Assembly (NCBI GenBank): GCA_019637805.1 | Contig: JAHBVB010000001.1 | Span: 819,875-883,874, forward strand | Origin: Anaerolineales bacterium | Lineage (GTDB): Bacteria > Chloroflexota > Anaerolineae > Anaerolineales > UBA11579 | DNA length: 64,000 nucleotides | Direction: 5' to 3' | In this document: positions 2,399 to 54,437 of the stretch, one piece after another | Position numbering within the stretch: position 1 is the stretch's first letter | How the letters are laid out: every line of letters begins with the position of its first letter | The notes under the pieces: generated by a model | Seen by the model: the letters and a program-made list of their open reading frames with translations, nothing else | What the model was told of the DNA's origin: nothing | Database searches by the model: none | Made by a program: the position numbers and the translations under genes

Positions 2399-2824
2399 AT
2401 GAGCATTGAAGTTGTGGAATACAACGGCATTAAATATGCCGAGATCATTTGGGCGAATGCCCGCGTGGATAAAACCACCTTTTACTCTCCGGCAGAATCT
2501 TCATTCCAATTCGGCCTCCTGGCGCACGAAGCCGGTTTTGTGGAGCCACCGCATTATCACAAGGCCGTCAGCCGCACGATCGATGATCTGCAGCAGATGT
2601 TTGTGGTGCAGCGCGGGGTGGTGGTGGTGGACTTGTTCGGCGACGACGGTGAGAAACTGCGCGAAATTGAGATGGGTCCGGGGGATGCGATTGTGCTCAT
2701 TCACGGTGTACACGCCATCCGCGTCTTGGAAGACATGCAGTGCATCAGCGTTAAACAAGGCCCGTACCTGGGCGAAGAGAACGACAAAGTCTTTGTGGAT
2801 GTAAAAAATGATCCCAGTCTTTGA
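2399..2824 (+). CDS. Cupin-domain protein
   Basis: A single-domain cupin of 141 residues with a histidine pair in 'EPPHYHKAV' (first cupin motif) and a later 'MGPGDAIVLIHGVHAIRV' (second motif, with G and H in the expected places). It differs from the FdtA/QdtA sugar ketoisomerases I would expect beside a DegT aminotransferase, so I do not assign a reaction. It could be a metal-dependent sugar isomerase or dioxygenase, or a binding protein. It has a clean GGAGG ribosome site at 2386-2390 and overlaps the next gene by 17 bases, so co-translation with the aminotransferase is likely and the two probably act on one nucleotide sugar. Confidence 0.8.
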   Translation: MSIEVVEYNGIKYAEIIWANARVDKTTFYSPAESSFQFGLLAHEAGFVEPPHYHKAVSRTIDDLQQMFVVQRGVVVVDLFGDDGEKLREIEMGPGDAIVLIHGVHAIRVLEDMQCISVKQGPYLGEENDKVFVDVKNDPSL

Positions 2825-29729: not shown

Positions 29730-29742
29730 AGTGGAGTTAGTG

Positions 29743-30750
29743 ATGGATTGGACAAAACAAGTCGTACTGGTTACCGGCGGGACGGGCTCATTTGGCAAGG
29801 CCTGCATCCGCCTGTTGTTGGATGAATACAAACCGGCCAAGGTGATCGTTTTTAGCCGGGATGAGCTGAAGCAGCATGAAATGCGCATGGCTGGCTTTGA
29901 CCAGCCCAACTTGCGCTATTTCATTGGCGATGTGCGCGACCAGGACCGCCTGACCCGCGCCATGGACGGCGTCACCATTGTCATTCACGCCGCGGCGCTG
30001 AAGCAGGTGCCGGCCTGCGAGTACAACCCAATGGAAGCGATCAAGACCAATATTCTGGGCACCGCCAACGTAGTCGAGGCCGCCCTGGCCACCGGCGTGC
30101 ACAAGGTGCTGGCGCTGAGTACCGACAAAGCGGTCAGCCCGGTCAACTTGTACGGGGCCACCAAGCTGGCTGCCGAGAAGCTGACCGTGCAGAGCAACGC
30201 CTATTCCGGCGAGCGCCCGACGCGTTTCAGCTGCGTGCGCTACGGCAATGTGGTCGGCAGCCGCGGTTCGGTAGTGCCACTCTTTTTAAAGCAGCGCGCT
30301 GCCGGCAAACTGAGCATCACCGACGAGCGTATGACGCGCTTCTGGCTCTCGTTGGAGCAGGGCGTGCGCTTTGTGTTGAAGTCGATCGAATTGATGCAGG
30401 GCGGTGAGGTCTTTGTGCCTAAACTTCCCAGCACGACCATTACCGACCTGGCGCGCGCCATGGCCCCTGAGGCTGAGCTGGATGTGATCGGCATTCGTCC
30501 CGGCGAGAAACTGCATGAAGTGCTGATTTCCGAGGACGAAGCGCGCACCGCGGTGGAATTGGACGATATGTACGTACTGCAGCCCGCCCAAGGGCCCTGG
30601 TTTGTGCGTTCCTGGGATGGCAAAGGCAAGCCGCTGCCGGATGGCTTCCACTACGCCAGCAATGAGAACGACCAGGTCCTGAATGTGAGCGAGATCCAGG
30701 ATATTGTGGCCCCCATCGCGGCTGAATGGCAGGCGGGCAAACTGGGATGA
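29743..30750 (+). CDS. UDP-N-acetylglucosamine 4,6-dehydratase-like (PseB/CapE family)
   Basis: A 335-residue extended SDR of the PseB/FlaA1/CapE group. NAD motif VVLVTGGTGSFGKACI; catalytic region 'VLALSTDKAVSPVNLYGATKLAAEKL', with the T-D-K in place of the usual S-x-Y lead and the later Y-x3-K; substrate motif 'GNVVGSRGSVVPLF'. PseB catalyses 4,6-dehydration with C5 inversion of UDP-GlcNAc, the first step to pseudaminic acid; CapE does the same on the way to L-FucNAc. GGAG at 29732-29735 fixes the ATG 29743 start. It overlaps an RmlD-like reductase by four bases, then a NeuB gene, so an acidic nine-carbon sugar route is likely. Confidence 0.88.
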   Translation: MDWTKQVVLVTGGTGSFGKACIRLLLDEYKPAKVIVFSRDELKQHEMRMAGFDQPNLRYFIGDVRDQDRLTRAMDGVTIVIHAAALKQVPACEYNPMEAIKTNILGTANVVEAALATGVHKVLALSTDKAVSPVNLYGATKLAAEKLTVQSNAYSGERPTRFSCVRYGNVVGSRGSVVPLFLKQRAAGKLSITDERMTRFWLSLEQGVRFVLKSIELMQGGEVFVPKLPSTTITDLARAMAPEAELDVIGIRPGEKLHEVLISEDEARTAVELDDMYVLQPAQGPWFVRSWDGKGKPLPDGFHYASNENDQVLNVSEIQDIVAPIAAEWQAGKLG

Positions 30751-31682
30751 CCCGCATCCTGGTGACCGGCGTCAGCGGCCTGCTGGGCAGCAACCTGGCC
30801 CTGGCCGCTGCGCCGCGTTATGAAGTGGTGGGCGTGGTACACCGCCAAGGGCTGCACAACCCTGGCTTTGAAACCGTGCAGGCAGACCTGTTGGATCTAG
30901 ATGGCTTGGGCCCCCTGCTGGACGCCGTGCAGCCGGACTGGGTGGTGAATTGCGCCGCCCTGGCCAACCTGAACCAGGCCGAGCAGCAGCCGCAGCTGGC
31001 CCGGCGGCTGAACACCGAGATGCCCGGCCGCCTGGCGGCTGAAGCGGCCGCCCGCGGCCTGCGCCTGGTGCACATCTCCACTGATGCCGTCTTTGACGGC
31101 AGCAAGGGCAACTACCGCGAGACGGACGGCCCCAAGCCGCTCAGCGTTTATGCACAGAGCAAACGCATGGCTGAATTGGCGGTCAAGTCTGCCCACCCGG
31201 GAGCGATCTTGGCCCGCACAGTATTTTTTGGCTGGAGTGTGAATGGCCAGCAAAGCCTGGCCGAGTTCTTTTATAACAACCTCTCCGCTGGGCAATCTGT
31301 GCAGGGCCACACCGACCGGCGCTTTTGTCCGCTGCTGGTCACCGACCTAGCCGAACTCTTGCTGGAGATGTTGGATAAAGACCTGAATGGCATTTATCAC
31401 GTGGCCAGCGCCGATTCGATCACCAAGTATGAATTCGGCCTGGCGCTTGCCGAACGGTTTGGTTTGGATCCCAGCTCGATCGAGCCTGCCGAGAGCACGG
31501 CGCACAATCCGGCCGCTAAACGCTCCCCCGACCTGAGCCTGAACACCAGCCGGCTGGTGGGAGCACTGGGCCGCCGCCCGCCCAGCATTGCCCGGGGCAT
31601 TGAAGGTTTACACGCCCAGCTAGAGAACGGCCACCGCCTGCGCCTGCGGGCCATGGCCGAATCCCAGCCGCAGGAAGGATGA
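30747..31682 (+). CDS. RmlD-like NDP-4-keto-sugar reductase (SDR)
   Basis: A 311-residue extended SDR of the RmlD substrate-binding family. ILVTGVSGLLGSNLAL binds NADPH, 'DWVVNCAALANLNQAEQQP' and 'LVHISTDAVFDG' match RmlD, and the YxxxK is in 'LSVYAQSKRMAEL'. RmlD reduces a 4-keto-6-deoxy sugar. Overlap with the PseB-like dehydratase suggests it acts on that enzyme's 4-keto product. That would differ from the standard pseudaminate path, in which an aminotransferase (PseC) acts next; the only DegT enzyme here is 27 kb away. The start is ATG 30747, overlapping the previous stop (ATGA). Confidence 0.85.
   Translation: MTRILVTGVSGLLGSNLALAAAPRYEVVGVVHRQGLHNPGFETVQADLLDLDGLGPLLDAVQPDWVVNCAALANLNQAEQQPQLARRLNTEMPGRLAAEAAARGLRLVHISTDAVFDGSKGNYRETDGPKPLSVYAQSKRMAELAVKSAHPGAILARTVFFGWSVNGQQSLAEFFYNNLSAGQSVQGHTDRRFCPLLVTDLAELLLEMLDKDLNGIYHVASADSITKYEFGLALAERFGLDPSSIEPAESTAHNPAAKRSPDLSLNTSRLVGALGRRPPSIARGIEGLHAQLENGHRLRLRAMAESQPQEG
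31672..31678 (+). promoter_or_regulatory. Ribosome site that decides the NeuB start
   Basis: AGGAAGG ends directly before an ATG at 31679 but is nine bases before the in-frame ATG at 31688. The second distance is workable and the first is not, so 31688 is the better start for the synthase gene. Confidence 0.6.
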
Positions 31683-31687
31683 CCGTC

Positions 31688-32752
31688 ATGGAGATCACCA
31701 TTCAGGGCCGCAAGATCGGCCTGCAGCACCCCACCTATTTCATCGCCGACATTGCTGCCAACCATGATGGCAGCCTGCAGCGCGCCGTTGAGCTGATCCG
31801 CCTGGCCAAAGAAGCCGGGGCCGATGCGGCCAAGTTCCAGAACTTCCAGGCTCCCAAGATCGTCTCCGATTATGGCTTTCGCTCGCTGGATGGCCAGATC
31901 GGCCACCAGGCGGCCTGGACCAAGAGCGTGGTCGAGGTCTACGCCGAGGCCTCGATCCCTTTCGAGTGGACGCCGACGCTGAAGGAAGCCTGTGAGGAAT
32001 TTGATATCCATTATTTTTCCTCTCCGTATGACTACGATGCGATTGAGATGCTCGACCCCTATGTGCCGGCTTACAAAGCCGGCTCCAGCCTGATCTCCTG
32101 GCCGCAGGCCATCCTGCGCATGGCCGAGTTCGGCAAGCCAGTCATGATCGCCACCGGCGATTCCGATATGGCTGATGTGGAACGCACCATGGAGATGCTG
32201 CTGGCGGTCAACCGGCAGGTGGTGCTGATGCAGTGCAACACCAATTACACCGCTGCGGAGGGCAACTACGACCACTTGCACCTCAACGTGCTCAAGACCT
32301 ATGCCGAACGCTGGCCGAATGTGATCCTGGGCCTCTCCGACCATACCCAGAGCGCCGCCCCCGTGGTGGGCGCCGTGGCGCTGGGTGCCCGCGTGATCGA
32401 GCGCCACTTTACCGACAGCAACGAGCGCGACGGCCCCGATCACAAATTTGCGCTCAACCCGCAGAATTGGGCCCACATGGTCGCCGAAGTGCGCATTTTG
32501 GAGCGCGCCCTCGGCTCGGCCGAAAAGTTTGTGGCCGAGAACGAGAAGGAAACCTACATCGTGCAGCGCCACTGCCTGCGGGCGGCGCGCCAGATCAAGG
32601 CGGGCGAAGTCTTCAGCGAAGATATGCTCGAGGTGCTGCGCCCGGCCACTCCCGGCGCACTGATGGCCTGGGACATCCCCCAGGTGCTGGGCAGGAAAGC
32701 CGCCGCCGACCTGCCTTACGGCAAAGATATCCGCCCGGAGGATCTGGCCTAG
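31688..32752 (+). CDS. neuB: Nonulosonic acid synthase (NeuB/PseI/LegI family) with SAF domain
   Basis: A 354-residue enzyme of full NeuB length. It condenses phosphoenolpyruvate with a six-carbon amino sugar to give a nine-carbon 2-keto acid. The TIM barrel shows 'YFIADIAANHDG' (metal/PEP site), 'ADAAKFQNF', 'YFSSPYDYDAIEML', 'YKAGSSLISWPQAI', 'LMQCNTNYTA' and 'GLSDHTQSAAPVVGAVALGARVIERHFTD'. The C-terminal antifreeze-like SAF domain (about 290-354; 'AARQIKAGEVFSEDML') is complete. The exact sugar is not readable; the PseB partner points to a pseudaminate-like or 6-deoxy product. A second, shorter paralogue lies at 47098. Confidence 0.92.
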   Translation: MEITIQGRKIGLQHPTYFIADIAANHDGSLQRAVELIRLAKEAGADAAKFQNFQAPKIVSDYGFRSLDGQIGHQAAWTKSVVEVYAEASIPFEWTPTLKEACEEFDIHYFSSPYDYDAIEMLDPYVPAYKAGSSLISWPQAILRMAEFGKPVMIATGDSDMADVERTMEMLLAVNRQVVLMQCNTNYTAAEGNYDHLHLNVLKTYAERWPNVILGLSDHTQSAAPVVGAVALGARVIERHFTDSNERDGPDHKFALNPQNWAHMVAEVRILERALGSAEKFVAENEKETYIVQRHCLRAARQIKAGEVFSEDMLEVLRPATPGALMAWDIPQVLGRKAAADLPYGKDIRPEDLA

Positions 32753-32761
32753 CTCTCTGCC

Positions 32762-33826
32762 ATGAAGGTCTTGTACTTCAGCCGCAGCTACACGCCGCAT
32801 GACCACCGTTTCCTGGCCGCCATCCAACAAGGCGGCGGCCAGGCGGTTTTTTTGCGACTGCCCGGCGAGGGCGGCAGCGAGCCGCGCGCCCTGCCTGCCG
32901 GAGTGCAAGCCCTGGCCTGGCGCGGCAGCCTGCCGGCCGCGCTGGACGAGGCCCAGCCTGACCTGCTGCACGCCGGCCCGCTGGATGACTGCGCCTACCT
33001 GGCGGCGCGCAGCCGCTTTCACCCGTTGGTGGCCATGTCCTGGGGATCTGATATTTTGTGGACCGCCCGGCGCAACGGCTTGAAACGCCTGCGCGTGCGC
33101 AAAAGTTTGCGGGCGGCCAATGCGCTGATCGGTGATTGCGCCGTAGTGCGCCAAGCGGCGGAAAACTACGGCATGCCTGCTGATAAGATCGTCACCTTTC
33201 CCTGGGGCATTGATCTGCAAGCCTTCAACCCGCACAACAGCGACGGCGGCCTGCGCGCCCGCCTGGGCTGGAGGGACAACTTTGTGCTGCTGCACTTGCG
33301 CAGTTGGGAAGCCGTCTACGACCCCCTAACGGTGGCGCGCGCCTTTGTGCTGGCTGCCCGCCAGCAGCCGCGCCTGCGCCTGCTGATGCCGGGCAGCGGC
33401 CGCCTGGAAGGGCGGCTGCACGCCATTTTTGCGCGGGCCGGCCTGCAGGAGCGCGTGCGCCTGCCCGGACGCCTGAGCCAAACTGAACTGCCCGAGTATT
33501 ACCGGGCGGCTGACTTGTATTTGAGCGCTTCGCTCAGCGACGGTTCCTCGGTTTCGCTGATGGAAGCGCTGGCCAGCGGTCTGCCCGCGCTGGTTTCCGA
33601 CATCCCGGGCAACCGCGAATGGGTACAGCCCGGCGAGCAAGGCTGGCTCTTCCCGGCCGGCAAGCCCGAGGTGTTGGCTGAGCGCATCCTGCGGGCCGCC
33701 GCGGCCAAAGAGCTGGCCGGCATGGCTGCTGCAGCACGGCGCACTGCGGAGCAGCGCGCCGACTGGGCGCACAATCAGCAAGGCTTGTTTGAGGCCTATC
33801 GCCTTGCAATGCAGGGGCCGCGCTGA
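32762..33826 (+). CDS. GT4-family glycosyltransferase
   Basis: A 354-residue GT-B enzyme: 'MKVLYFSRSYTPHDHRFLAAI' at the N-terminus, 'VAMSWGSDILWTARR', 'KIVTFPWGIDLQAFNP' and the donor site 'SLSDGSSVSLMEALASGLPALVSD'. It is inserted between NeuB and the cytidylyltransferase and ends in a TGATG junction with the latter. It may use one of the sugars made by this module, but GT4 enzymes usually take UDP- or GDP-sugars rather than CMP-nonulosonates, so it is more likely a chain-building enzyme. Confidence 0.9.
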   Translation: MKVLYFSRSYTPHDHRFLAAIQQGGGQAVFLRLPGEGGSEPRALPAGVQALAWRGSLPAALDEAQPDLLHAGPLDDCAYLAARSRFHPLVAMSWGSDILWTARRNGLKRLRVRKSLRAANALIGDCAVVRQAAENYGMPADKIVTFPWGIDLQAFNPHNSDGGLRARLGWRDNFVLLHLRSWEAVYDPLTVARAFVLAARQQPRLRLLMPGSGRLEGRLHAIFARAGLQERVRLPGRLSQTELPEYYRAADLYLSASLSDGSSVSLMEALASGLPALVSDIPGNREWVQPGEQGWLFPAGKPEVLAERILRAAAAKELAGMAAAARRTAEQRADWAHNQQGLFEAYRLAMQGPR

Positions 33827-34587
33827 TGGCCGCGCGCGTCGTGGCGATCGTACAGGCCCGCATGGGCTCCAGCCGGCTGCCGGGCAAGGTGCTGGCTGAC
33901 CTGGGCGGCCAGCCGGCCTTGGCCTGGGTCACCCGCCGGGCGGCGCGCGCCCAGTGCATAGACCAGGTGGTGGTGGCCACCTCCACTGATGAGCAAGACG
34001 ACGCCATCGCTGAATTTTGCCAGGCGGCCGGGCTGCCCTGTACACGCGGCAGCCTGCACGACGTGCTGGATCGCTTCCACCAGGCCGCCGAAGAAAGCCG
34101 GGCCGAGATCGTCGTGCGTCTGACCGGCGATTGCCCGTTGATCGATCCCAGCATACTGGACGACAACCTGGGAGTCTTTCTGGCGGCCCAACCCGGGCTG
34201 GACTTCGCCGCCAATCGCCTGCCCGGCCAGCCGCGCAGCATCCCGATCGGCCTGGACGCCGAGTACTGCACCCGTGCCGCCCTGGATGCGGCCTGGCGCG
34301 AAGCCAAAGCGCCGCACCAGCGCGAGCATGTCATGCCGTTCTTGTACGAGAATCCGCAGCGCTTCAATATTCTGCATATGGAGCATCACCCCAGCTATGG
34401 CCAGTACCGTTGGACGCTGGATACGCCTGAGGACCTGCAGCTGCTGCGCGAGGTGGCGACGCACTTTGCGGATGATGCTTTTTCCTGGTTGGACGTGATC
34501 CGCTTGTTCGAGCAGCAGCCGCACTTGGCCCAAATCAACGCCGCCGTGCCGCACAAAAGCCAATATGATGTAGACCCACGCCAATGA
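33826..34587 (+). CDS. SpsF-type cytidylyltransferase (CMP-nonulosonate synthetase candidate)
   Basis: A 253-residue nucleotidyltransferase whose N-terminus VVAIVQARMGSSRLPGKVL is the canonical SpsF signature (the CTP-binding loop). 'IVVRLTGDCPLIDP' carries the metal-binding aspartate, and 'DTPEDLQLLREV' is a conserved C-terminal motif. In Bacillus sps clusters and many O-antigen loci SpsF-type proteins sit beside NeuB homologues and are taken to activate the keto acid with CTP. Here it is two genes from NeuB, one gene of GT4 intervening, so activating that product is the obvious role. It overlaps the preceding gene by one base and the next by four. Confidence 0.88.
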   Translation: MAARVVAIVQARMGSSRLPGKVLADLGGQPALAWVTRRAARAQCIDQVVVATSTDEQDDAIAEFCQAAGLPCTRGSLHDVLDRFHQAAEESRAEIVVRLTGDCPLIDPSILDDNLGVFLAAQPGLDFAANRLPGQPRSIPIGLDAEYCTRAALDAAWREAKAPHQREHVMPFLYENPQRFNILHMEHHPSYGQYRWTLDTPEDLQLLREVATHFADDAFSWLDVIRLFEQQPHLAQINAAVPHKSQYDVDPRQ

Positions 34588-43277: not shown

Positions 43278-45020
<1,743 letters not shown>

Positions 45021-45050: not shown

Positions 45051-45869
45051 ATGTCCGCACTCCCTTCTTTTGACCTGACTGCCCGCGCTGCCGTAGTAAC
45101 CGGCGGCGCGGGCTTGCTTGGCCGCCAGTTTTGCCAAACCCTGGCTTCGGCCGGGGCGGCGGTGCTGGTGGCGGACATGGATCTGGACGCCGCCGAAGCG
45201 GTGGCCGAGGGCATCCGCGCCGCTGGCGGACGGGCTTTAGCCCAGCAAACCAACGTGGGCGAGGCTGATTCTGCGCGAGCGATGGCTGCCGCTGCGGCCG
45301 AGCAGTTCGGCAGCCTGGACATCCTGGTCAACAGCGCCGCCCTGGACCCCAAATTCGACAAATCTGGAGCGGGTAAACACAGCAGCGCCTTTGAGGACTA
45401 CGCGCTGGAAACCTGGGAAGCCGCGCTCAGGGTCAATCTGACCGGCGCGTTCCTATGCTCGCAAGCCACGGTAATGCACATGCTCTCTCAGGGTCGCGGC
45501 GTCATTATCAATATCTGCTCCACCTATGGCCTGGGTGGGCCTGACCAGCGCCTGTACCAGCGCCCGGGTGAGCCTGCCCAATACAAACCAGTGGATTACA
45601 CCGTCACCAAAGCGGGCATTTTAGGGCTGACCAAGTACCTGGCTACGTATTACGGCGACAAGAACATTCGCGTGAATGCCCTCACACCGGGTGGCGTATT
45701 CAACGGACATGACGAGCATTTTGTGCAGCAATACTCTGCCCGCACGGTTCTGGGGCGCATGGCACAGCCGGATGAGATGAATGGCGGCCTGCTTTTCCTG
45801 GCCTCGGATGCCTCCAGCTACATGACGGGAGCCAATCTGGTTGTGGATGGGGGCTGGACGGCCTGGTGA
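45051..45869 (+). CDS. Classical short-chain dehydrogenase/reductase
   Basis: A 272-residue classical SDR: 'AAVVTGGAGLLGRQFCQTL' (TGxxxGxG variant), 'ILVNSAALDP' (NxAA), 'VIINICSTYGLGG' (catalytic serine) and 'PVDYTVTKAGILGLTKYL' (YxxxK), ending 'YMTGANLVVDGGW'. Start taken at ATG 45051; a TTG at 45042 is less likely. Similar SDRs accompany nonulosonate clusters, where they set the redox state of a sugar carbon. It lies between the PAPS synthetase and the NeuA-KdsC fusion, with a GTGA overlap to the latter, so a role in making that module's sugar is more likely than in sulfate metabolism. Confidence 0.88.
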   Translation: MSALPSFDLTARAAVVTGGAGLLGRQFCQTLASAGAAVLVADMDLDAAEAVAEGIRAAGGRALAQQTNVGEADSARAMAAAAAEQFGSLDILVNSAALDPKFDKSGAGKHSSAFEDYALETWEAALRVNLTGAFLCSQATVMHMLSQGRGVIINICSTYGLGGPDQRLYQRPGEPAQYKPVDYTVTKAGILGLTKYLATYYGDKNIRVNALTPGGVFNGHDEHFVQQYSARTVLGRMAQPDEMNGGLLFLASDASSYMTGANLVVDGGWTAW

Positions 45870-47101
45870 GCGCCAAGAAGCCGGAAGTTCTGGCGATCAT
45901 CCCCGCCCGCGGCGGCTCCAAGAGCATTCCGCGCAAAAATGCACTCCCCTTTCTGGGGCATCCCTTATTGGCTTATAGTGTCGCTGCCGGGGTGCAAGCC
46001 CAGAAAGTGACCCGCACCATCATTTCCACCGACGATGCCGAAATGGCGGAGCTGGCTCGCCAATACGGGGCCGAAGCACCGTTTTTACGCCCGGCCGAAT
46101 TCGCTCAGGACAGCACTCAAGATTTGCCAGTCTTCCAGCATGCTTTGGGGTGGCTGGCCGAGAACGAAGATTACCATCCCGAGATCGTGGTGCAGCTGCG
46201 CCCCACCTCTCCGGTGCGGCCGCACAGTCTGGTGGATGAAGCCGTGGAGATCTTGCTCAACCACCCCGCCGCCGATTCCGTGCGTGGCGTAGTACCTTCC
46301 GGCCAAAACCCTTACAAGATGTGGCGGATAAACGAAAGCGAAGCGATGCAGCCGCTGCTGACCGTGGATCACAACCTGGAACCCTACAATTCGCCCCGCC
46401 AGGTCTTGCCACCGACCTACTGGCAGACCGGACATGTGGACGCTATTCGGGCGGCGACGATTCTGCAGGGCAGTATGAGCGGAGCGTCGATCTGGCCGGT
46501 GCATATTGATCCCCGCTACACAGTGGATATTGATACCCACAACGATTGGAAGCGGGCTGAGTGGCTGGCCGCCTCAGGCGAACTGGACCTGGTCTGGCCC
46601 GGTGCCTCTCGCCGGCCGCTGCCCGCCGAGGTACGCTTGCTGGTGCTGGACTTCGACGGCGTGATGACTGACAACCGCGTGTGGGTGGACCAGGACGGTC
46701 GCGAACAGGTGGCCGCCAACCGCGGCGACGGGCTGGGCCTGCTGCAATTGCGCAAAGCTGGGGTGCAGACCCTGGTGATGTCGATGGAGACCAACCCGGT
46801 GGTGGCGCGCCGCTGTGAAAAGCTGGGCATTGAGTATTACCAGGGCATTGAAGATAAAGCTACTTTGTTAAAGAAGATATTGGCTGAAAAGCAGATCGCG
46901 GCCGAAAACACGGTTTATATTGGCAATGACACCAACGACCTGCCCTGCTTCCCTCTGGTCGGTTGCGCCGTGGCAGTGGGCGACTCTCATCCAGCCGTAT
47001 TGCGCCAGGCAGACAGAGTTTTGATTTACCCCGGCGGCCGGGGCGCAGTCCGCGAGCTTTGTGATTTAATTCTAGAGAACCTCCCCAAGGAGAACAAATG
47101 A
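45866..47101 (+). CDS. Fusion of CMP-acylneuraminate synthetase and KdsC-type HAD phosphatase
   Basis: A 411-residue two-domain enzyme. Residues 1-240 are a cytidylyltransferase: 'LAIIPARGGSKSIPRKN' binds CTP, and 'VVQLRPTSPVRPHSLVDEA' and 'VDIDTHNDWKRAEWL' are family motifs. Residues 255-400 are a HAD phosphatase of the KdsC kind: nucleophile motif LDFDGVMTDN with D262/D264, 'VMSMETNP' (loop II), K331 in 'GIEDKATLLKK' and 'GNDTNDLPC' (loop IV). The phosphatase would remove the 9-phosphate (or 8-phosphate) of a keto-sugar phosphate before CMP transfer. It overlaps the SDR (GTGA) and the NeuB gene (ATGA), so the synthase makes a phosphorylated keto acid and this enzyme finishes and activates it; that order is inference. 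Confidence 0.92.
   Translation: MSAKKPEVLAIIPARGGSKSIPRKNALPFLGHPLLAYSVAAGVQAQKVTRTIISTDDAEMAELARQYGAEAPFLRPAEFAQDSTQDLPVFQHALGWLAENEDYHPEIVVQLRPTSPVRPHSLVDEAVEILLNHPAADSVRGVVPSGQNPYKMWRINESEAMQPLLTVDHNLEPYNSPRQVLPPTYWQTGHVDAIRAATILQGSMSGASIWPVHIDPRYTVDIDTHNDWKRAEWLAASGELDLVWPGASRRPLPAEVRLLVLDFDGVMTDNRVWVDQDGREQVAANRGDGLGLLQLRKAGVQTLVMSMETNPVVARRCEKLGIEYYQGIEDKATLLKKILAEKQIAAENTVYIGNDTNDLPCFPLVGCAVAVGDSHPAVLRQADRVLIYPGGRGAVRELCDLILENLPKENK
47087..47092 (+). promoter_or_regulatory. Strong ribosome site for the second NeuB gene
   Basis: AAGGAG, five bases before the ATG at 47098, lies inside the end of the NeuA-KdsC fusion gene. Confidence 0.6.
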
Positions 47102-47970
47102 AGCGTGAAATTCAGCTCGGTAAGCGCATAGTCGGTGATGGTCACCCAGCCTATATCATCGGCGAGATTGGCATTAACCACAACGGCGATATTGACGTCG
47201 CTAAGCAGCTGATTGACCTGGCCAAGTGGGCTGGCGCCGACGCAGTCAAGTTCCAAAAGCGCACCCCAGAATTGGCCACGCCTCCCGACCAGCGCGACAA
47301 GATGCGCGAAACTCCTTGGGGCTACATTACCTATCTGGACTATCGCTACAAAGTGGAGTTTGACGAGACAGCTTATCGTGAGATTGATGCCCACTGCAAA
47401 CAAAAGGGCATGGACTGGTTTGTCTCGGTGTGGGATTTGGAATCGATCGACTTCATGGAGGCCTTTGACACACCGTGCTACAAAGTGCCCTCTGCGGCCA
47501 TGACCGACCACGAAATGCTGCGCAAGCTCAAGAAGACCGGCCGCCCGATCATCCTCTCGACCGGCATGTCCACCGATGAGCAGATCAAGGCCTCGGTGGA
47601 TGTGGTGGGTACCGATAACCTGGTGCTGACCCACACCACCAGCACCTACCCCTGCGAACCGGAAGAGCTCAACCTGCGCATGATCCAGACTTTATTAGAA
47701 CAATATCCCTGCCCGGTGGGCTATTCTGGCCATGAAGTTGGCTTGGTGACCTCCGCGGTGGCCGTGGCCATGGGTGCCTGTCTGGTCGAACGCCACATCA
47801 CCCTGGACCGGGCCATGTGGGGCACTGACCAGGCCGCCTCTGTGGAGCCGGGCGGCCTGCAGAAGCTGGTCAAATATATCCGTGTGACTGAGCAGTCTCT
47901 GGGAGACGGAAAGAAGCGCGTCTACGACAGCGAATTGCCTTCGCTGAAGAAGATGCGCCGCGTGCAGTAG
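47098..47970 (+). CDS. NeuB-type nonulosonate synthase lacking the SAF domain
   Basis: A 290-residue member of the NeuB family that ends after the TIM barrel; the C-terminal antifreeze-like SAF domain (about 60 residues in usual 340-360-residue members, such as the one at 31688) is missing. Barrel motifs are 'YIIGEIGINHNGD' and 'ADAVKFQKRTPEL', with 'LSTGMSTDEQI', 'LTHTTSTYPCEPEELNL', 'GYSGHEVGL' and 'LVERHITLDRAMWGTDQAASV'. The last motif resembles KDN/KDN-9-phosphate synthase-like proteins. With the phosphatase fusion upstream, a 9-phosphorylated keto sugar such as a KDN-type acid is a reasonable product. It overlaps the fusion gene by four bases. Confidence 0.88.
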   Translation: MKREIQLGKRIVGDGHPAYIIGEIGINHNGDIDVAKQLIDLAKWAGADAVKFQKRTPELATPPDQRDKMRETPWGYITYLDYRYKVEFDETAYREIDAHCKQKGMDWFVSVWDLESIDFMEAFDTPCYKVPSAAMTDHEMLRKLKKTGRPIILSTGMSTDEQIKASVDVVGTDNLVLTHTTSTYPCEPEELNLRMIQTLLEQYPCPVGYSGHEVGLVTSAVAVAMGACLVERHITLDRAMWGTDQAASVEPGGLQKLVKYIRVTEQSLGDGKKRVYDSELPSLKKMRRVQ

Positions 47971-47993: not shown

Positions 47994-49574
47994 TTGCTGG
48001 CACGCATCTCCTCTAAGCTGCGCAATCTGCTAAGCACCTACCGCGCCCGGCGCATTGCCCGGGACGTGGCCACCAAGGCGGAGCCGCAAGGCCCCGCAGT
48101 GGTGTTTTTTAACTCCTCGGCGCGCATGGGCTTCATCAGTCAGAATGCGGCTTTCTCCATCTTGTCGGCCTGGGGACTGCGTTTGGCCGGGGTGCGCATT
48201 GTGCATTTCATTTGCAGCAGCGGCATGCGCCGCTGCGTGCTGGGCACCAATGCGCTGGACCCCAACGAAGAACCGGAATGCAACGAGTGCATAGCGTTGT
48301 CCCGCCACCTATACGCCGATGCCGAGACGCGCTGGTTTGGCTTTGAGGAGCGTGCTGAGATTGGCGCCGACATTCAAGGTATGGACCTGGCACAGTTGAC
48401 GGAGTATAGCTACCAGGACTGGCCGCTGGGCCAGCTGGTGTTGCCCAGCCTGCGCTGGGCATTGCGCCGCCACCACTTGGAAGATGACAAGCAGACGCGT
48501 ATCTTCTTCCGGCAGTACATCCTCTCGGCCTACAACGTCGCCCAGGAGTTTGAGCAGATGCTGGATGCGGTGCAGCCTAAGGCAGTCGTGCTCTTCAACG
48601 GCATCATGTTCCCGGAGGCTACTGCCGCCCTGGCCGCCCGGCGGCGCGGCCTGCGCACCATCACCCATGAAGTTGGCCTGCGACCCTTCACCGCTTTTTT
48701 CACTGAGGGCGAGGCTACCGCGTACCCTATGGATATTCCCCCCGATTTCCAGTTGGATGCTGCCCAAAACGCTCAGTTGGATGAATATTTAGGCAATCGT
48801 TTCCAGGGACGTTTTAGCATGGCGGGCGTGCAGTTTTGGCCGCAGATGCAAGAGTTGGGCGACGCTTTTCTAAGCAAGGCCGCCCAGTTTAAACACATCG
48901 TGCCCATATTCACCAACGTCATTTTTGATACCAGCCAGGTGCATGCCAATACCCGCTTTGCCCACATGTTTGCCTGGTTGGATGCCTTGCTGCCCATAAT
49001 CCGCCAGCATCAAGACACATTGTTTGTCATTCGCGCCCATCCGGATGAAATGCGCCCCAACAGCAACAAGAAGAGTCGCGAGAGCGTGGCTGAGTGGGTG
49101 CAGGCCAACCGCGTGGCTGAATTGCCCAATGTGATCTTTGTGGATGCCACTGAGTACCTCAGTTCCTATGCGCTCATTCAGCGCTCGCACTTTGTGATGG
49201 TCTACAACTCCTCCATCGGCTTGGAAGCTTCTATTCTGGGCAAGCCGGTGTTGAGTGCTGGGGCGGCGCGCTATACGCAGTACAAGACCGTTTTCTATCC
49301 CGCGTCTGCCGACGAATACCTGGGCCAAGTGAACCAGTTCCTGGCAGCTGAGAGCCTGACGCAGCCGGCTGAGATGGTCAGTGAAGCGCGCCGGGTGCTG
49401 TACTACCAGCTGTATCGCACGGCGCTGCCCTTTGGCGATTTTCTGTATCCGCACGCCACCAAGGGCTTGGTGCATTTCAAAGATTTCCCAACAGAGGCTT
49501 TACAGCCGGAAAATTCAGCAGCGGTGCAGGCCGTCTTCGACGGCGTGATAAACGACAAGCCTTTTCTGGTATAA
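47994..49574 (+). CDS. Capsule-type GT-B protein (KpsS-like style)
   Basis: A 526-residue soluble protein beginning at TTG. It shares the end-domain pattern of the proteins at 27275 and 36467: 'LFVIRAHPDEMRPNS', 'VIFVDATEYLSSYALIQRSHFVMVYNSSIGLEASILGKPVL'. The N-terminal part has 'GPAVVFFNSSARMGFISQNAAFS' and, unusually, a cysteine-rich run (about residues 60-100: ICSSGMRRC...ECNEC) that might bind a metal. Family members are capsule-related GT-B enzymes. It is the last gene of the NeuA-KdsC/NeuB module, so transferring the product nonulosonate to an acceptor is a fair hypothesis. It ends immediately before the ACP gene. Confidence 0.65.
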   Translation: MLARISSKLRNLLSTYRARRIARDVATKAEPQGPAVVFFNSSARMGFISQNAAFSILSAWGLRLAGVRIVHFICSSGMRRCVLGTNALDPNEEPECNECIALSRHLYADAETRWFGFEERAEIGADIQGMDLAQLTEYSYQDWPLGQLVLPSLRWALRRHHLEDDKQTRIFFRQYILSAYNVAQEFEQMLDAVQPKAVVLFNGIMFPEATAALAARRRGLRTITHEVGLRPFTAFFTEGEATAYPMDIPPDFQLDAAQNAQLDEYLGNRFQGRFSMAGVQFWPQMQELGDAFLSKAAQFKHIVPIFTNVIFDTSQVHANTRFAHMFAWLDALLPIIRQHQDTLFVIRAHPDEMRPNSNKKSRESVAEWVQANRVAELPNVIFVDATEYLSSYALIQRSHFVMVYNSSIGLEASILGKPVLSAGAARYTQYKTVFYPASADEYLGQVNQFLAAESLTQPAEMVSEARRVLYYQLYRTALPFGDFLYPHATKGLVHFKDFPTEALQPENSAAVQAVFDGVINDKPFLV

Positions 49575-49582: not shown

Positions 49583-49843
49583 ATGAGCACTGATATGACA
49601 GACACCCCTTTGATGGATGAGTTGCTTGCGCTACTGGCCGAAACTTTCCGTGTGGATTTGACTGAGATCGACCCAGATGCTCAACTGGGGGAATTGCCCC
49701 AGTGGGATTCGATGGCACATATGGATTTGATGCTGGCTTTGGAAGTCCGCTATGGGGTGCAAATCACAGCAGAGACGATTGGTGGGCTGACCAGCCTGCC
49801 TTTGATCCTGGCGCATGTAGAAGAGTTGCAGAATGGCGGCTGA
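49583..49843 (+). CDS. Acyl carrier protein-like (phosphopantetheine carrier)
   Basis: An 86-residue acidic four-helix carrier protein. The modification serine is S43 in 'LPQWDSMAHMDLML', where the usual D-S-L is D-S-M, and 'DLTEIDPDAQLGEL' plus 'YGVQITAETIGGL' flank it as in ACPs. A second ATG (49595) is possible. It would be charged on the pantetheine thiol and serve as a donor of acyl or aminoacyl groups. The next gene, overlapping by 11 bases, is an amino acid:carrier-protein-ligase-like enzyme, so I expect the cargo to be an amino acid. No phosphopantetheinyl transferase is present in the window. Confidence 0.88.
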   Translation: MSTDMTDTPLMDELLALLAETFRVDLTEIDPDAQLGELPQWDSMAHMDLMLALEVRYGVQITAETIGGLTSLPLILAHVEELQNGG

Positions 49844-51023
49844 ACACCGCTTCGCGCCGCAGGTGACCATTCCAACGCACTTGGTGGGCCAAGTGCAGTC
49901 CAAGTTGGCTTATGTGGATGAGGCCATCCAAACTGCGGAGATCGCGCCTGACGGCGACAGCGTCCACCTGCAGCTGCGTAGCAGCTTGAGCGCTGAGGCA
50001 TTGACTGCGCTCGAGGCCAAGGTGCAGCAAGTGGTGGCGGATATGGCCAGCGGCGCCTTGCCCCCCAAAGTAGAGGTATTGGAAGACCACATGGCCCGCC
50101 CAGTGCCGTACGCCACCGACCCGATGCCTGAATTGTTGGCGCGCGGCGAGGTGAGCCGCGAGCACACTGGCATTTATTCGCTGGGGCCGCTGGTCACGCG
50201 CCTGATCGAAGTCTTTGAGCGCTATTTTGTGCTCCTGGCCGCCGAATTTGAGGCCGCTCCGCAGCGTTTTCCGACGTTAATCTCCGCGGAAAAGCTGGAT
50301 CGGGTTAAGTATTTCCGCGCCTTTCCTCACTCGTTGACCTTTGCTACGCACCTGCGTGAAGACCTGCATGTGATCAATGACTTTGCCGAGCACACGCATT
50401 ATGAAGAGACTGGTCTCAATGCGCCCCCAGAGGCTTTCTCCAAGATCCAGGCGCTGCTGTCCCCGGCGGTTTGCTACCATTACTACTTTGCCTTGGCAGA
50501 CAAACCGCTGCCCGGCGGCCAGCTGACTGCCACCGCTGTGGGGCACTGCTTCCGCTACGAGTCCAGTAACTTGAACACCCTGGAACGCTTGTGGGACTTC
50601 ACCATGCGCGAGATCATCTTTGTCGGCCCGGCCGACTTCGTGCTGGAGAACCGTGAGCGCGGCCGCCAGAAAGTTGCTGCTTACCTGGAACAGATCGGCC
50701 TGGCGTACCTGGTGGAAAGCGCCAACGACCCTTTCTTCGTCGGCGAGTTCCGCAAGCAGGCCGCCTTCCAAAACGCCTTTCAACTCAAATATGAAATCCG
50801 CGCCCGCCTGCCGTTCAAAGAAAGCTCGCTGGCGGTGGGTTCGTACAATTACCATCAAGATTTTTTCGGCCGCCACCTCAACATTACCCTGCCCGATGGC
50901 AAGCCTGCCCATACCGGCTGCGTGGCCTTTGGCCTCGAACGCTTGGCCTATGCCTTTTTGAGCCAATACGGACTGGAACCGGCAGCCTGGCCAGCGCCGG
51001 TGCGCGAGGCACTGCATGGCTGA
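49833..51023 (+). CDS. Class-II aaRS-like amino acid:[carrier protein] ligase
   Basis: A 396-residue homologue of seryl-tRNA-synthetase-like catalytic domains, without the tRNA-binding arm. Motif 2 is GHCFRYES (R241/E243), motif 3 is GCVAFGLERLAYAF (C363, R370), and 'ERLWDFTMREIIFVG' follows the usual seryl-like pattern. C214 (AVCYHYY) and C363, probably with a glutamate near 'REIIF', match the zinc ligands known from amino acid:[carrier protein] ligases of Bradyrhizobium, which load glycine or alanine onto a carrier protein rather than tRNA. About 80 extra N-terminal residues are of unknown role. It overlaps the ACP by 11 bases and is followed by GNAT and AAC(3)-like enzymes that could use the aminoacyl thioester. 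Confidence 0.87.
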   Translation: MAAEHRFAPQVTIPTHLVGQVQSKLAYVDEAIQTAEIAPDGDSVHLQLRSSLSAEALTALEAKVQQVVADMASGALPPKVEVLEDHMARPVPYATDPMPELLARGEVSREHTGIYSLGPLVTRLIEVFERYFVLLAAEFEAAPQRFPTLISAEKLDRVKYFRAFPHSLTFATHLREDLHVINDFAEHTHYEETGLNAPPEAFSKIQALLSPAVCYHYYFALADKPLPGGQLTATAVGHCFRYESSNLNTLERLWDFTMREIIFVGPADFVLENRERGRQKVAAYLEQIGLAYLVESANDPFFVGEFRKQAAFQNAFQLKYEIRARLPFKESSLAVGSYNYHQDFFGRHLNITLPDGKPAHTGCVAFGLERLAYAFLSQYGLEPAAWPAPVREALHG

Positions 51024-51486
51024 TTGGCCGGTGCGCTCCGCCGAAGAAGCCGATCTGCCTGCAACCGCGGCCGCCTGGCTGCGCCTGCAGCAGTTCCACC
51101 ACAGCCTGGGTTTGGCTTTTCCCCTGCCCGTCGACGCGGCCGAGAAATGGCTGGGCAGCTTTCAGCGCAGCCTGGGCCGCTTTAGCTTCTTATGGGTGGC
51201 CGGGCCAGTGGGGCAGCCTGGCGCCTTTTTGCTGGCGCGTGTGAAGCAAAGCGCCGCCTTTCTGGGTGCTGTGCAAGTGGGCGAGATCAGCGATTTGTAT
51301 GTAGACGAATCACTGCGCGGCTCTGGCTTGGGGGCGCAGTTGACCGATACGGCTTTGCAGAAATTCCGTGAACTTGGACTGCATTCTGTGGAAGTGCAGG
51401 TGCAGGCGGGCAACCAGGCTGGGTTGGACTTTTGGCACAAGCAGGGCTTTGCCACTGACCTGACCCTGGTGCGCAAGGTGTTGTAA
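51016..51486 (+). CDS. GNAT-family N-acyltransferase
   Basis: A 156-residue GNAT protein. The acyl-CoA/pantetheine-binding loop is 'ISDLYVDESLRGSGLGAQL' (R-x-x-G-x-G/A), with strand and helix order 'LHSVEVQVQAGNQAGLDFWHKQGF' at the C-terminus. It normally transfers an acyl group from CoA to an amine. Its start overlaps the ligase gene by eight bases, so it could accept the aminoacyl-ACP in place of CoA and pass the amino acid to an amino sugar; the loop that grips pantetheine would fit either. This substrate is inference, not seen. Confidence 0.85.
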   Translation: MADWPVRSAEEADLPATAAAWLRLQQFHHSLGLAFPLPVDAAEKWLGSFQRSLGRFSFLWVAGPVGQPGAFLLARVKQSAAFLGAVQVGEISDLYVDESLRGSGLGAQLTDTALQKFRELGLHSVEVQVQAGNQAGLDFWHKQGFATDLTLVRKVL

Positions 51487-51487
51487 C

Positions 51488-52258
51488 ATGCCGCTGCCGG
51501 AACTGACCGCGGACGCATTACGCCAGGCTTTACAGGCCGTGGGCATACAAGCGGGCGATGGCCTACTGGTGCACTCGGCTTTGCACCCGCTGGGACGCCC
51601 TCAGGGCGGGCTGGAGATGGTCCTGGCCACGCTGCTTGAGCTGATTGGCGAGGAAGGCACCCTGGCCGTACCGGTTTTCAATTTCGCCTTCGCCCGCGGC
51701 GAAGACTATGACCCTTACGCCACCCCCTCGCAGGGTATGGGCGCTTTCTCGGAATTTGTACGCACACAGCCCAAGGTGCTACGCACCACTCACCCCATGC
51801 AATCCGTGGCTTTGCTGGGGAAACACGCCAAGGCCCTGGCCGTGCCGGATACCTGCTCCGCTTTTGACCAGGGCTCGGCCTTTGAGCGCATACTCCAATT
51901 GGACTTCAAACTTTTGTTGCTAGGCGCCGATATTCAAGCTGCCTCCATGGTGCATTACAGCGAGCAGCGCGCCAATGTACCTTATCGCTATTGGAAAGAC
52001 TTTCATGCCCGCGTGCACCTGGGCGGGCAGTGGCTGCCCAAGAAGTATTTGATGTTCGTGCGAGATGAGCAGTACCAGCCGCAGCTGCGGCTGGCCCCGA
52101 TTCAAGAGAGATTGCAAGCTGCCGGGCAATGGCGCCAGGCTCCGTTGCACTTTGGGCAGGTGGCCGCCTGTCACCTGGCGGACTTTGTGACCGCCACGGA
52201 TGCGCTGCTGGCGGCCGATCCCTGGGCTTTGGTGGCCAACCGTCCGGAGTCTGCATGA
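51488..52258 (+). CDS. Aminoglycoside 3-N-acetyltransferase-family (AAC(3)/YokD) protein
   Basis: A 256-residue protein of the Antibiotic_NAT family: 'GDGLLVHSALHPLGRPQGGLEMVLATLLELIGEEGTLAVPVF' and 'TTHPMQSVALLGKHA', with the H-rich site typical of AAC(3). Chromosomal members in glycan clusters are thought to acetylate amino sugars rather than confer resistance. It starts one base after the GNAT gene and overlaps the next gene (ATGA). Two acyltransferases in a row next to an ACP suggest alternative acyl groups on one amino sugar. No evidence of antibiotic resistance. Confidence 0.88.
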   Translation: MPLPELTADALRQALQAVGIQAGDGLLVHSALHPLGRPQGGLEMVLATLLELIGEEGTLAVPVFNFAFARGEDYDPYATPSQGMGAFSEFVRTQPKVLRTTHPMQSVALLGKHAKALAVPDTCSAFDQGSAFERILQLDFKLLLLGADIQAASMVHYSEQRANVPYRYWKDFHARVHLGGQWLPKKYLMFVRDEQYQPQLRLAPIQERLQAAGQWRQAPLHFGQVAACHLADFVTATDALLAADPWALVANRPESA

Positions 52259-53577
52259 GCAGCATGCTGGAACTGATCAAGGAGTTATGGTGGCTGCCGC
52301 GCCATCTGGTGTCGGATGGCTACGATGCCGCCCTGGCGCGCCTGGCCGAAGAAGTGCCCATGACCATCCATGAAGTGCCCAGCGGAACCAAGATCTGGAC
52401 CTGGACCGTGCCGGAAAAATGGGGTTGTGACGAAGCTTATTTGGAAACCTTGGATGGCCGCCGCTTGATCGACCTGGCCGACAATCCTCTGCACGTGGTT
52501 TCGTACTCGCTGCCATTTGAGGGTGAGGTCAGCCGCGAGGAACTACTCAAGCACTTACATTGCCATCCCCATCTGCCAGACGCGATCCCCTTTGTCTTCA
52601 AGTATTACCAGCATGATTGGGGCCTGTGTGCGCCCAAGACCTTGATCGACAGCTTGGATGAGGAACGCTACCTGGTCAAGATCGCTGCTCGCTTTGAACC
52701 CGGCGCGCTCAAGATTGGTGAGGTCTTCGTCCCCGGCGAGGTCGAAGATTGCTTTGTGCTGGCTGCCCATCTGGATCATCCAGCACAGGTCAACGACGAC
52801 CTCAGCGGAGTGGTGGTGGGGTTGGACGTGATGCGCGCCTTGCTGGCTGGCCCCAAGCCACACTACAGCGTGCGCTTCCTGGTCTTTCCCGAAACCCAGG
52901 GGTCCATCGCTTACCTGAGTCAGCATGAGCATTTGCTCCCACAAATGCACGGCGGGCTGTTCCTGGAGATGCTGGGTAATGATGCGCCGCACACGTTGCA
53001 GCTCTCCCACCAGGGCCACAGCCCGGCCGACGGCGCCCTGGTGCTGGCGCTGCGCCAACGCGAGCCCGAGGCTTACGTGGGCGCTATACGTACGATTATT
53101 GACAATGACGAGCGCCAGTTCAATGCGCCTGGCGTGCGGGTGCCCATGCTCTCGCTCTCGCGGGTGGTCAACCCGCAGCTGCCCGGGTCGCGCTTCTATC
53201 CTTATCCGCAATATCACTCCCATCTGGACCGCCCAGAGATCGTCTCACAGCAAAGGTTGGAAGCTTCGCGTGATCTGGTGCTGGCATTGCTGGCCGCTTT
53301 TGACCAGACGCGCTATTTGATCAACCATTACAAGGGCGAGATCTTTGCTTCCGGCTTTGGCCTGTGGGTGGACTATCACCAGGACCCCGAGGGCCACCGG
53401 CGCCACTTCCGCATCATGGATCGCATTGACGGGACGCGCAGCGCCGCCGATATTGCGCTGGAGCTGGATTGCAGCCTGGAACAGGTGATGGACGTGGTGG
53501 ATCCGCTGGTTGAAAAAGGCCTGGTCTCGCTGAGCGATCGGCCGCAACCCAGCGATCCGCATCTGGGAGCTGTATGA
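52255..53577 (+). CDS. DUF4910/DUF2172 M28-like zinc aminopeptidase-domain protein with C-terminal wHTH
   Basis: A 440-residue cytoplasmic protein. The peptidase-like core (about 140-345) has metal-ligand candidates H172 and D174 in AHLDHP, D181/D182 in NDDLSG, E213 in VFPETQGS and H321/H323 in YHSHLD, the order of an M28-type di-zinc centre. The final 60 residues (385-430, 'GTRSAADIALELDCSLEQVMDVVDPLVEKGLVSL') look like a winged helix. Family proteins recur in O-antigen and capsule loci without a defined substrate. I start at ATG 52255, which overlaps the AAC(3) stop. A role in removing amino acids or amide groups from a decorated sugar would fit beside the aminoacyl-ACP genes, but that is a guess. 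Confidence 0.83.
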   Translation: MSSMLELIKELWWLPRHLVSDGYDAALARLAEEVPMTIHEVPSGTKIWTWTVPEKWGCDEAYLETLDGRRLIDLADNPLHVVSYSLPFEGEVSREELLKHLHCHPHLPDAIPFVFKYYQHDWGLCAPKTLIDSLDEERYLVKIAARFEPGALKIGEVFVPGEVEDCFVLAAHLDHPAQVNDDLSGVVVGLDVMRALLAGPKPHYSVRFLVFPETQGSIAYLSQHEHLLPQMHGGLFLEMLGNDAPHTLQLSHQGHSPADGALVLALRQREPEAYVGAIRTIIDNDERQFNAPGVRVPMLSLSRVVNPQLPGSRFYPYPQYHSHLDRPEIVSQQRLEASRDLVLALLAAFDQTRYLINHYKGEIFASGFGLWVDYHQDPEGHRRHFRIMDRIDGTRSAADIALELDCSLEQVMDVVDPLVEKGLVSLSDRPQPSDPHLGAV

Positions 53578-54437
53578 GCCCGCTGACTGCACTCAAGCAG
53601 CCGTTCAAGCAGGCGCGCTGGCAGTGGCGCCGGGCGCAGGCCGCTCGCCGCTGGGGCCGGCAGCTGGCCGAGTCTGTGCCAGCCGTGGTGGGCAACGCTA
53701 TGCCTAAGTCCGGCTCGCACTTACTCATTCAGATCCTTAACGGCCTCACTCAGCTGGGCCCTTTTGTGGACCCGGGCATGCCGCCGCTCAGCCGCTCAGC
53801 GGCCAACCGCAACCTGCCGGAGGCGCAGGTGGTCGCCAACCTGCGCCGGCTGGGGCCGGGCGATATTGCTTACTGCTATTTGCATGCGCGTGCTCCCTAT
53901 ATTGAAGAGCTAACCCGACCGGGCATTGCGGCTTTCTTTGTCTACCGCGACCCGCGCGATGTGATTGTCTCGCAGGTCTTTTACGCCACGCAAATGCACG
54001 CGGGCCATGGCATGCACGAATATTACAACCAGGAACTCTCCAGCGTGGAAGAGCGCATTAATGCAGCCATTCAAGGTGTGCAGATGGACACTGCCCGGCT
54101 TTCATCGATCGCCGCCAAGTACGAACATTATCTTGGTTGGCTGCAACAGCCGGCGGTGTGCAGTTTGCGCTTTGAAGACCTGATCCTGGACCGTCCCGCG
54201 GCGCTGGGTCGTATGCTGGACCACTTGGCCGAACACGGCTTCACTCCGCAGGCGTCACGCCAGCAAGCCATTGATGTCCTGACCGCGGCGGTCAAACCGC
54301 GTGCCTCGGGCACGTTCCGGCGCGGCCAGCCTGGCGAATGGCGCGAGCATTTCACAGAAGCCAACAAACAAAACTTCAAAACGGCCACCGATGACCTATT
54401 GCAGCGTCTGGGGTACGAGCGAGACCGCAAGTGGTAA
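53574..54437 (+). CDS. PAPS-dependent sulfotransferase
   Basis: A 287-residue sulfotransferase. 'AMPKSGSHLLIQILNGL' is the 5'-phosphosulfate loop, 'YRDPRDVIVSQVFYATQ' the 3'-phosphate loop, 'SLRFEDLILD' follows, and 'FRRGQPGEWREHFTEANKQNF' is the C-terminal RKG-like motif. The next gene encodes a clear paralogue sharing the ending 'DLLQRLGYE', so this is a tandem duplication. It overlaps the DUF4910 gene (ATGA). Acceptor group (sugar or amino sugar) unknown. Confidence 0.9.
   Translation: MSPLTALKQPFKQARWQWRRAQAARRWGRQLAESVPAVVGNAMPKSGSHLLIQILNGLTQLGPFVDPGMPPLSRSAANRNLPEAQVVANLRRLGPGDIAYCYLHARAPYIEELTRPGIAAFFVYRDPRDVIVSQVFYATQMHAGHGMHEYYNQELSSVEERINAAIQGVQMDTARLSSIAAKYEHYLGWLQQPAVCSLRFEDLILDRPAALGRMLDHLAEHGFTPQASRQQAIDVLTAAVKPRASGTFRRGQPGEWREHFTEANKQNFKTATDDLLQRLGYERDRKW

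Follow-up and report, generated by a model that had tools for sequence, protein, structure and literature searches.

A block of five same-strand genes at positions 49583-53577 of the window, the 64,000-nucleotide stretch analysed here from contig positions 819875-883874 of the 2.3-Mb genome of an Anaerolineales bacterium, probably directs some amino-acid acylation of a glycan sugar. The genes encode, in order on the plus strand, an acyl/peptidyl carrier protein (ACP), a ligase that resembles class II aminoacyl-tRNA synthetases (aaRS), a GNAT N-acetyltransferase, an AAC(3)-type N-acyltransferase, and an M28-like protein of the DUF4910 family. The genes themselves, their conservation, their modular recurrence, their fusions in other genomes, and their residue patterns were observed directly. 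The chemistry that we propose, including which amino acid and which sugar take part and in what sequence the reactions run, is inferred throughout from this context. The ligase would use ATP to activate an amino acid, for which Gly and Ala are the likeliest candidates, and would load it onto the ACP; the GNAT would acetylate the amino group of the loaded amino acid to give an N-acetyl-aminoacyl-ACP; and the AAC(3)-type enzyme would move the acyl group from the ACP to an amine of a nonulosonic-acid-type sugar. Our favoured acceptor is the C5 nitrogen in the sugar made by a PseB-RmlD-NeuB pathway. The DUF4910 protein would remove the acetyl group already present on that nitrogen, freeing the amine, and the outcome would be a surface glycan bearing an amino-acid amide. 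This particular assignment of roles is tentative, and we rate it slightly below an even chance.

A contig scan for the ligase gave 53 loci, most of them from Chloroflexota. Block counts cover the loci with enough flanking sequence, with an Acidobacteria locus (L067) left out. Beside the ligase in Anaerolineales loci, an ACP gene is present in 40 of 41, an AAC(3) gene in 40 of 40, a GNAT gene in 35 of 40, and a DUF4910 gene in 33 of 34. Both gene order and gene content recur in about 40 Anaerolineales contigs, and therefore the five-gene arrangement is not due to chance. A first-pass annotation of this DNA had described five overlapping or abutting genes and proposed a search of other genomes for the same block. 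All five genes are present, with successive junction overlaps of 11, 8, -1, and 4 bp, and the block does recur elsewhere, beside NeuB genes. Since the last of these junctions is an ATGA overlap with the AAC(3) gene, the most probable start of the DUF4910 gene is 52255, not 52129; the gene overlaps the sulfotransferase gene that follows it by 4 bp. The GNAT gene is the variable member, being absent from five loci (L033, L034, L037, L042, and L044) and doubled in L032, as shown directly, and probably also in L035 and L068, judging by spacing. One block, L052, has no DUF4910 gene within 5.9 kb. The usual flanks are NeuA-HAD, NeuB, capsule glycosyltransferase (GT), sulfotransferase, and second cytidylyltransferase genes, which bears out the surface-glycan, nonulosonic-acid setting proposed earlier; apart from L043, nearly every locus with sufficient flanking sequence has NeuA/NeuB, capsule GT, and sulfotransferase genes around the block. 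A methyltransferase related to L053:8737-9660 occurs in 21 Anaerolineales loci, in several of them just upstream of the ACP gene, a position at which the window has none.

By sequence, the ligase most closely matches Bll0957 of Bradyrhizobium, a glycine:[carrier protein] ligase (PDB 3mey, 3pzc, and 4h2s), to which it is about 33-35% identical. A phmmer comparison gives an E value of 5.8e-44 against Bll0957 (3mey) and 9.3e-22 against archaeal seryl-tRNA synthetase (SerRS), and the corresponding values in a profile search are 4.7e-64 and 5.6e-46. C214, E260, and C363, its Cys/Glu/Cys zinc ligands, do not vary among the 53 aligned ligases. The earlier description of the enzyme as an amino acid:[carrier protein] ligase-like protein with the zinc ligands of that family thus agrees with our results. 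The protein falls below the cut-off of the Pfam class II core, PF00587 (23.5 bits versus 29.3). It likewise scores 177.6 bits against NCBIfam NF005479, the PRK07080 equivalog, which has a cut-off of 357, and stays far below the SerRS equivalogs PRK00960 (124.4 versus 611) and TIGR00415 (82.9 versus 489.55). Because its scores lie below the NCBIfam equivalog cut-offs for both the ligase and SerRS, we treat it as a separate subfamily outside the NF005479 equivalog. We rejected the possibility that the enzyme is itself a SerRS on the basis of these scores and of a separate, genuine bacterial serS gene in the genome (441 bits). A tree that included Bll0957 and SerRS showed both as very long branches of unsure placement, and was not used.

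A structural model of the ligase was predicted with good confidence (predicted local distance difference test score, pLDDT, 87.9; predicted template modelling score, pTM, 0.87). Bll0957 entries rank first when the model is searched with Foldseek. In VIA-align, Bll0957 and archaeal SerRS tie as matches: the comparison to Bll0957 has a Z score of 30.5 and a root-mean-square deviation (rmsd) of 2.5 over 272 residues (model residues 94-396), and that to Methanosarcina barkeri SerRS has a Z score of 30.7 and an rmsd of 10.4 over 349 residues (model residues 1-396 to SerRS residues 99-494). The N-terminal segment of approximately 85 residues has no counterpart in Bll0957 and aligns, in a loose superposition, to SerRS residues 99-166; the remainder of the SerRS N-domain is absent. 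The model suggests that this segment may be what is left of a SerRS N-domain, gone altogether from Bll0957, with the high rmsd reflecting a poorly superposed domain placement. Thus, the window ligase shares its catalytic fold and part of the N-domain with archaeal-type SerRS (3w3s, 2cim) and differs from it in a truncated N-domain and far lower sequence scores. A true tRNA synthetase with an intact tRNA-binding arm, the outcome that would have undone the first-pass assignment, is disfavoured by sequence, by Foldseek rank, and by tRNA-arm content, while VIA-align does not separate SerRS from Bll0957.

At position 365, which we take to be an amino-acid pocket position of Bll0957-type enzymes, 48 of the 53 ligases have Ala and the other 5 have Gly. 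The window enzyme has Ala there (A365), as does Bll0957, whose glycine specificity we took from PDB titles and two reviews, and SerRS has Gly. This residue hints that Gly or Ala is the substrate of the window ligase. The window ligase and Bll0957 have in common the class II core, the three zinc ligands, and the pocket Ala, and each has a carrier protein gene in the same operon. The window ligase differs in its additional N-terminal residues and in its location within a glycan operon alongside GNAT, AAC(3), and DUF4910 genes.

The carrier protein exceeds the PF00550 cut-off, and S43, the phosphopantetheine site that the first-pass annotation had pointed out, is invariant in 17 aligned homologues. 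The genome also encodes a phosphopantetheinyl transferase. The GNAT, which has only a weak match to WecD (16.7 bits), may be the enzyme that caps the amino group of the carrier-bound amino acid. Outside Anaerolineales, these three genes are found with different partners. MBOAT (DltB-like)-ACP-ligase-GNAT operons are present in two Acidobacteriota (L067:8496-11720 and L071:8537-11666), with MBOATs that match DltB at 70.6 and 58 bits, respectively, below the equivalog cut-off; the arrangement is Dlt-like with a synthetase-type loader. The ligase-GNAT arrangement is seen again in a third Acidobacteriota contig. In a Lindowbacteria locus (L078:9935-13048), the order ligase-ACP-formyltransferase leads into a cysteine-rich protein that has no Pfam match; the Myxococcota locus L072 has a relative of this protein in front of the ligase. 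In another Myxococcota locus, L073, the order is ACP-ligase-hexapeptide transferases. No DUF4910 match was found in the genomes of L067, L071, L073, or L078. Taken together, these arrangements are why ACP, ligase, and GNAT are best read as a separable donor unit.

Full-length ligase homologues are also present on two Streptomyces plasmids, in cassettes (L004:9674-14495 and L005:5647-10516) that encode a 3-hydroxyacyl-CoA dehydrogenase, an ACP, an acyl-CoA dehydrogenase, an acyltransferase, and the ligase homologue. Both homologues have Gly at position 365, as in SerRS, and serine is the precursor of aminomalonyl-ACP. The cassettes resemble those for aminomalonyl-ACP supply, as in zwittermicin biosynthesis (PMC4207774).

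The AAC(3)-type protein matches PF02522 (Antibiotic_NAT) well above the gathering cut-off of 25 bits, and its best PDB match is FrbF (3sma). A role as a drug-resistance aminoglycoside 3-N-acetyltransferase was ruled out, as its NF033082 score is 100.6 bits against a cut-off of 270. For the DUF4910 protein, both PF16254 and the DUF2172 insert score above cut-off, and its structural model (pLDDT 91.4) has 3k9t as its top fold match, followed by M28 aminopeptidases. Residues H175, D181, and H321 (440-residue numbering) are the conserved equivalents of the 3k9t zinc ligands. The general-base Glu of M28 enzymes, which adjoins the zinc-ligand Glu, is replaced by Pro in the window protein (Pro-Glu-Thr) and in nearly all homologues, as reported for the DUF4910 family, which lacks the M28 catalytic Glu (PMC4000134). 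The AAC(3)-linked Chloroflexota DUF4910 subfamily keeps an additional Glu, E238, that 3k9t does not have. By analogy with the role hypothesised for Cj1295 of Campylobacter jejuni, the DUF4910 protein may be an N-deacylase, or an exchange partner, that clears a resident N-acyl group such as N-acetyl.

The AAC(3) and DUF4910 genes are associated in other genomes as well. The two are fused in a single 715-residue protein, and a Maritalea plasmid (L110:4943-7402) carries an AAC(3)-FkbH fusion beside MaoC-SDR, DUF4910, and NeuB genes. The candidate ACP in that cluster proved to be the MaoC-SDR protein, and no ACP was recognised there. An AAC(3) gene adjoins a DUF4910 gene in a Tritonibacter pse cluster that includes pseB, pseC, pseI, and pseF, with no pseH in the part of the cluster that was read, and the two genes lie near each other in Agrobacterium. 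In six loci of Anaerolineaceae-like genomes (family f11), AAC(3)-DUF4910 sits between the GT and SpsF genes of a PseB-RmlD-NeuB-GT-SpsF cluster, directly before the SpsF-like gene. Among the genomes that carry this pair and were screened for a ligase, G033 and G058 lack one. The same PseB-RmlD-NeuB-GT-SpsF cluster lies uninterrupted upstream of the five-gene block in 11 of the 12 evaluable ligase genomes (29731-34587 in the window). From these arrangements, AAC(3) and DUF4910 are best read as a separable acceptor unit that is joined to the donor unit in the block.

Mainly because the AAC(3)-DUF4910 pair has these two placements around one sugar pathway, we propose the product of PseB, RmlD, and NeuB as the acceptor. 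Given that the 4-keto step is served by the RmlD-like reductase and that no aminotransferase gene is nearby, the only nitrogen expected in this product is the one derived from GlcNAc, which would become that of C5 of the nonulosonate. Of the two strong DegT genes in the genome, the first lies at 2808-3923 of the window and the second beyond the window, and neither is close to the block. We therefore dropped a DegT-made amino sugar as the local acceptor and prefer the C5 nitrogen from GlcNAc.

Three known systems resemble parts of this proposal. In Clostridium acetobutylicum, the CA_C2195 cluster (PDB 3k9t) combines DUF4910 with an ACP, aminosugar acetyltransferases, NeuB, and a nucleotidyltransferase, and Das et al. 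proposed surface-sugar modification with possible transacylation to an amino sugar (PMC4000134). According to their Table 2, that cluster has an acetyltransferase-HAD protein and an ATP-grasp ligase, whereas the window block has an aaRS-like ligase. In Campylobacter jejuni, 5-N-(di-O-methylglyceroyl) pseudaminic acid is not made without Cj1295, which belongs to an aminopeptidase-like polysaccharide biosynthesis family (PIRSF015244); C5 deacetylation by Cj1295 is a hypothesis of Hitchen et al. (PMC3068675). The pathway is like the window block in having the same kind of aminopeptidase-like protein and places an unusual N-acyl group on a nonulosonic acid, as we propose for the block, but the acyl group is di-O-methylglyceroyl and not an amino acid. 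Finally, the Dlt system (DltA, DltB, DltC, and DltD) likewise puts an amino acid on a small carrier and then on a surface polymer. Its loader is an AMP-binding ligase, whereas the block has an aaRS-like loader and an AAC(3)-type transferase. No dltB or dltD was recognised among the block genes and their neighbours, and DltB-like MBOATs occur only in the distant relatives L067 and L071.

Which protein transfers the amino acid is the point on which the alternatives differ most. The first-pass annotation had the GNAT pass the amino acid from the ACP to an amino sugar and the DUF4910 protein trim or reverse the product, which would leave AAC(3) to act elsewhere. The GNAT gene does adjoin and overlap the ligase gene, and WecD-type GNATs acylate amino sugars, although the window GNAT resembles WecD weakly. 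However, the GNAT is missing from five of 40 blocks, is doubled in L032, and follows the ligase where the transferase would be a DltB-like MBOAT. AAC(3), on the other hand, is the likelier sugar transferase because it is constant in 40 of 40 loci and is the acyltransferase that is fused elsewhere to FkbH or DUF4910. We thus consider transfer by the GNAT improbable. Trimming or reversal by DUF4910 also appears less likely than clearance of a resident N-acyl group or help in an exchange, given the loss of the M28 Glu and the installation of an unusual acyl group through Cj1295 (PMC3068675). A different possibility is that DUF4910 is itself the amide-exchange or transfer enzyme, working by single-zinc acyl transfer, with AAC(3) as an accessory or active on a different amine. 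The zinc triad is kept while the hydrolytic Glu is lost, Das et al. considered an amino sugar as the possible recipient in a transacylation (PMC4000134), and Cj1295-dependent acylation occurred with Cj1296/7 phase-off (PMC3068675). Against these points, AAC(3) is present in every Anaerolineales locus counted and L052 has no DUF4910 gene nearby, and we regard this possibility as unlikely.

The amino acid could also be transferred without acetylation, with the GNAT acetylating another sugar amine or the amino acid after transfer. Blocks without a GNAT exist and would still yield a product by this route, but homologous GNATs follow ACP-ligase in Acidobacteriota that have no adjacent AAC(3), and the formyltransferase of L078 is found at a comparable position, in keeping with N-capping on the carrier; un-acetylated transfer therefore seems rather unlikely. 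We also think it improbable that the product of the block is a soluble acylated amino compound or a small, peptide-like metabolite and that its location in a glycan cluster is fortuitous. The L043 block and the ligase homologues in Streptomyces natural-product clusters are consistent with such a role, but glycan genes surround the block in nearly all the other well-flanked loci.

Several observations weigh against our preferred assignment, in which AAC(3) would transfer a capped amino acid to an amine freed by DUF4910. Within about 10 kb of the block in L043, a 20-kb locus, no homologue of the window glycan genes was recognised, and some DUF4910 clusters, in Rhizobiaceae and Streptomyces, show no annotated AAC(3) or ACP. 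About 16 kb separate the candidate acceptor cluster from the block in the window, and the NeuA-HAD/NeuB genes, which are closer, could produce a nonulosonate of another kind, even one that has no amine. With the catalytic Glu lost, DUF4910 could act as a hydrolase only by some other mechanism. Both variants of C. jejuni NCTC 11168 have an out-of-frame N-acetyltransferase gene Cj1296/7, even the variant in which Cj1295 is on (PMC3068675 Table 1), so an acyltransferase of this type may not be obligatory there.

The features of the block and of its surroundings are collected in Table 1. The second NeuB aligns only to the N-terminal part of NeuB models (TIGR03569 positions 2-276 of 329). The position of the cytidylyltransferase/KdsC-like fusion beside this short NeuB (45866-47970) suggests a phosphorylated nonulosonate intermediate. 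The sulfate adenylyltransferase/APS kinase-like gene and the two sulfotransferases (53574-55291) near the block suggest that the glycan is sulfated.

Table 1. Coordinates of the five-gene block, the candidate acceptor pathway, and neighbouring genes in the window.
Feature	Coordinates	Strand	Remarks
PseB (UDP-GlcNAc 4,6-dehydratase, inverting)	29731..30750	+	TIGR03589 475 bits, over cut-off 407.75
RmlD-like reductase	30726..31682	+	TIGR01214 173.9 bits, below cut-off 224; conserved
NeuB/PseI-type nonulosonate synthase	31679..32752	+	candidate acceptor pathway
SpsF-like cytidylyltransferase	33826..34587	+	named by resemblance only; position conserved
Sulfate adenylyltransferase/APS kinase-like gene	43278-45020		named by resemblance
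CMP-nonulosonate cytidylyltransferase fused to KdsC-like HAD phosphatase	45866..47101	+	PseF 146 and KdsC 131 bits, both below cut-off; conserved neighbour
Second NeuB	47098..47970	+	290 aa; PF03102; conserved neighbour
Capsule-type glycosyltransferase	47994..49574	+	PF05159; directly upstream of block
ACP (acyl/peptidyl carrier protein)	49583..49843	+	86 aa; phosphopantetheine site S43; PF00550 28.4 bits
Class II aaRS-like amino acid:[carrier protein] ligase-type enzyme	49833..51023	+	396 aa; zinc ligands C214, E260, C363
GNAT N-acetyltransferase	51016..51486	+	156 aa; PF00583 50.4 bits
AAC(3)-type N-acyltransferase	51488..52258	+	256 aa; PF02522 129.9 bits
DUF4910 + DUF2172 M28-like protein	52255..53577	+	440 aa; PF16254 197.3 bits, DUF2172 95.1 bits; probable start
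Two sulfotransferases	53574-54437 and 54431-55291	+	directly downstream of block; first PF00685, second by homology to first

Neighbourhoods that combine DUF4910, ACP, acyltransferase, and NeuB genes were already published in 2014 (Das et al., PMC4000134), and the open-access literature that was searched yielded nothing that connects an aaRS-like ligase with nonulosonate N-acylation. Thus, the parts and half of the neighbourhood were already known, and the link of the ligase to nonulosonate N-acylation appears to be new. An operon that ends in an N-acyltransferase within a nonulosonic-acid cluster points to a specific, testable acceptor, and the block, if our reading is true, would give an orphan ligase family its first described acceptor pathway. 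It would also help to explain the AAC(3)-like proteins without a resistance role that are found in glycan clusters. More broadly, it is possible, at a little under an even chance in our estimation, that amino acid:[carrier protein] ligases of aaRS origin quite generally supply (N-capped) amino acids for surface glycans without tRNA and work with exchangeable transferases. In Anaerolineales, AAC(3) with DUF4910 would serve nonulosonic acids; the counterparts would be DltB-like MBOATs in Acidobacteriota and hexapeptide enzymes in Myxococcota. If so, these bacteria would have a tRNA-independent, synthetase-derived route for adding amino acids to surface sugars.

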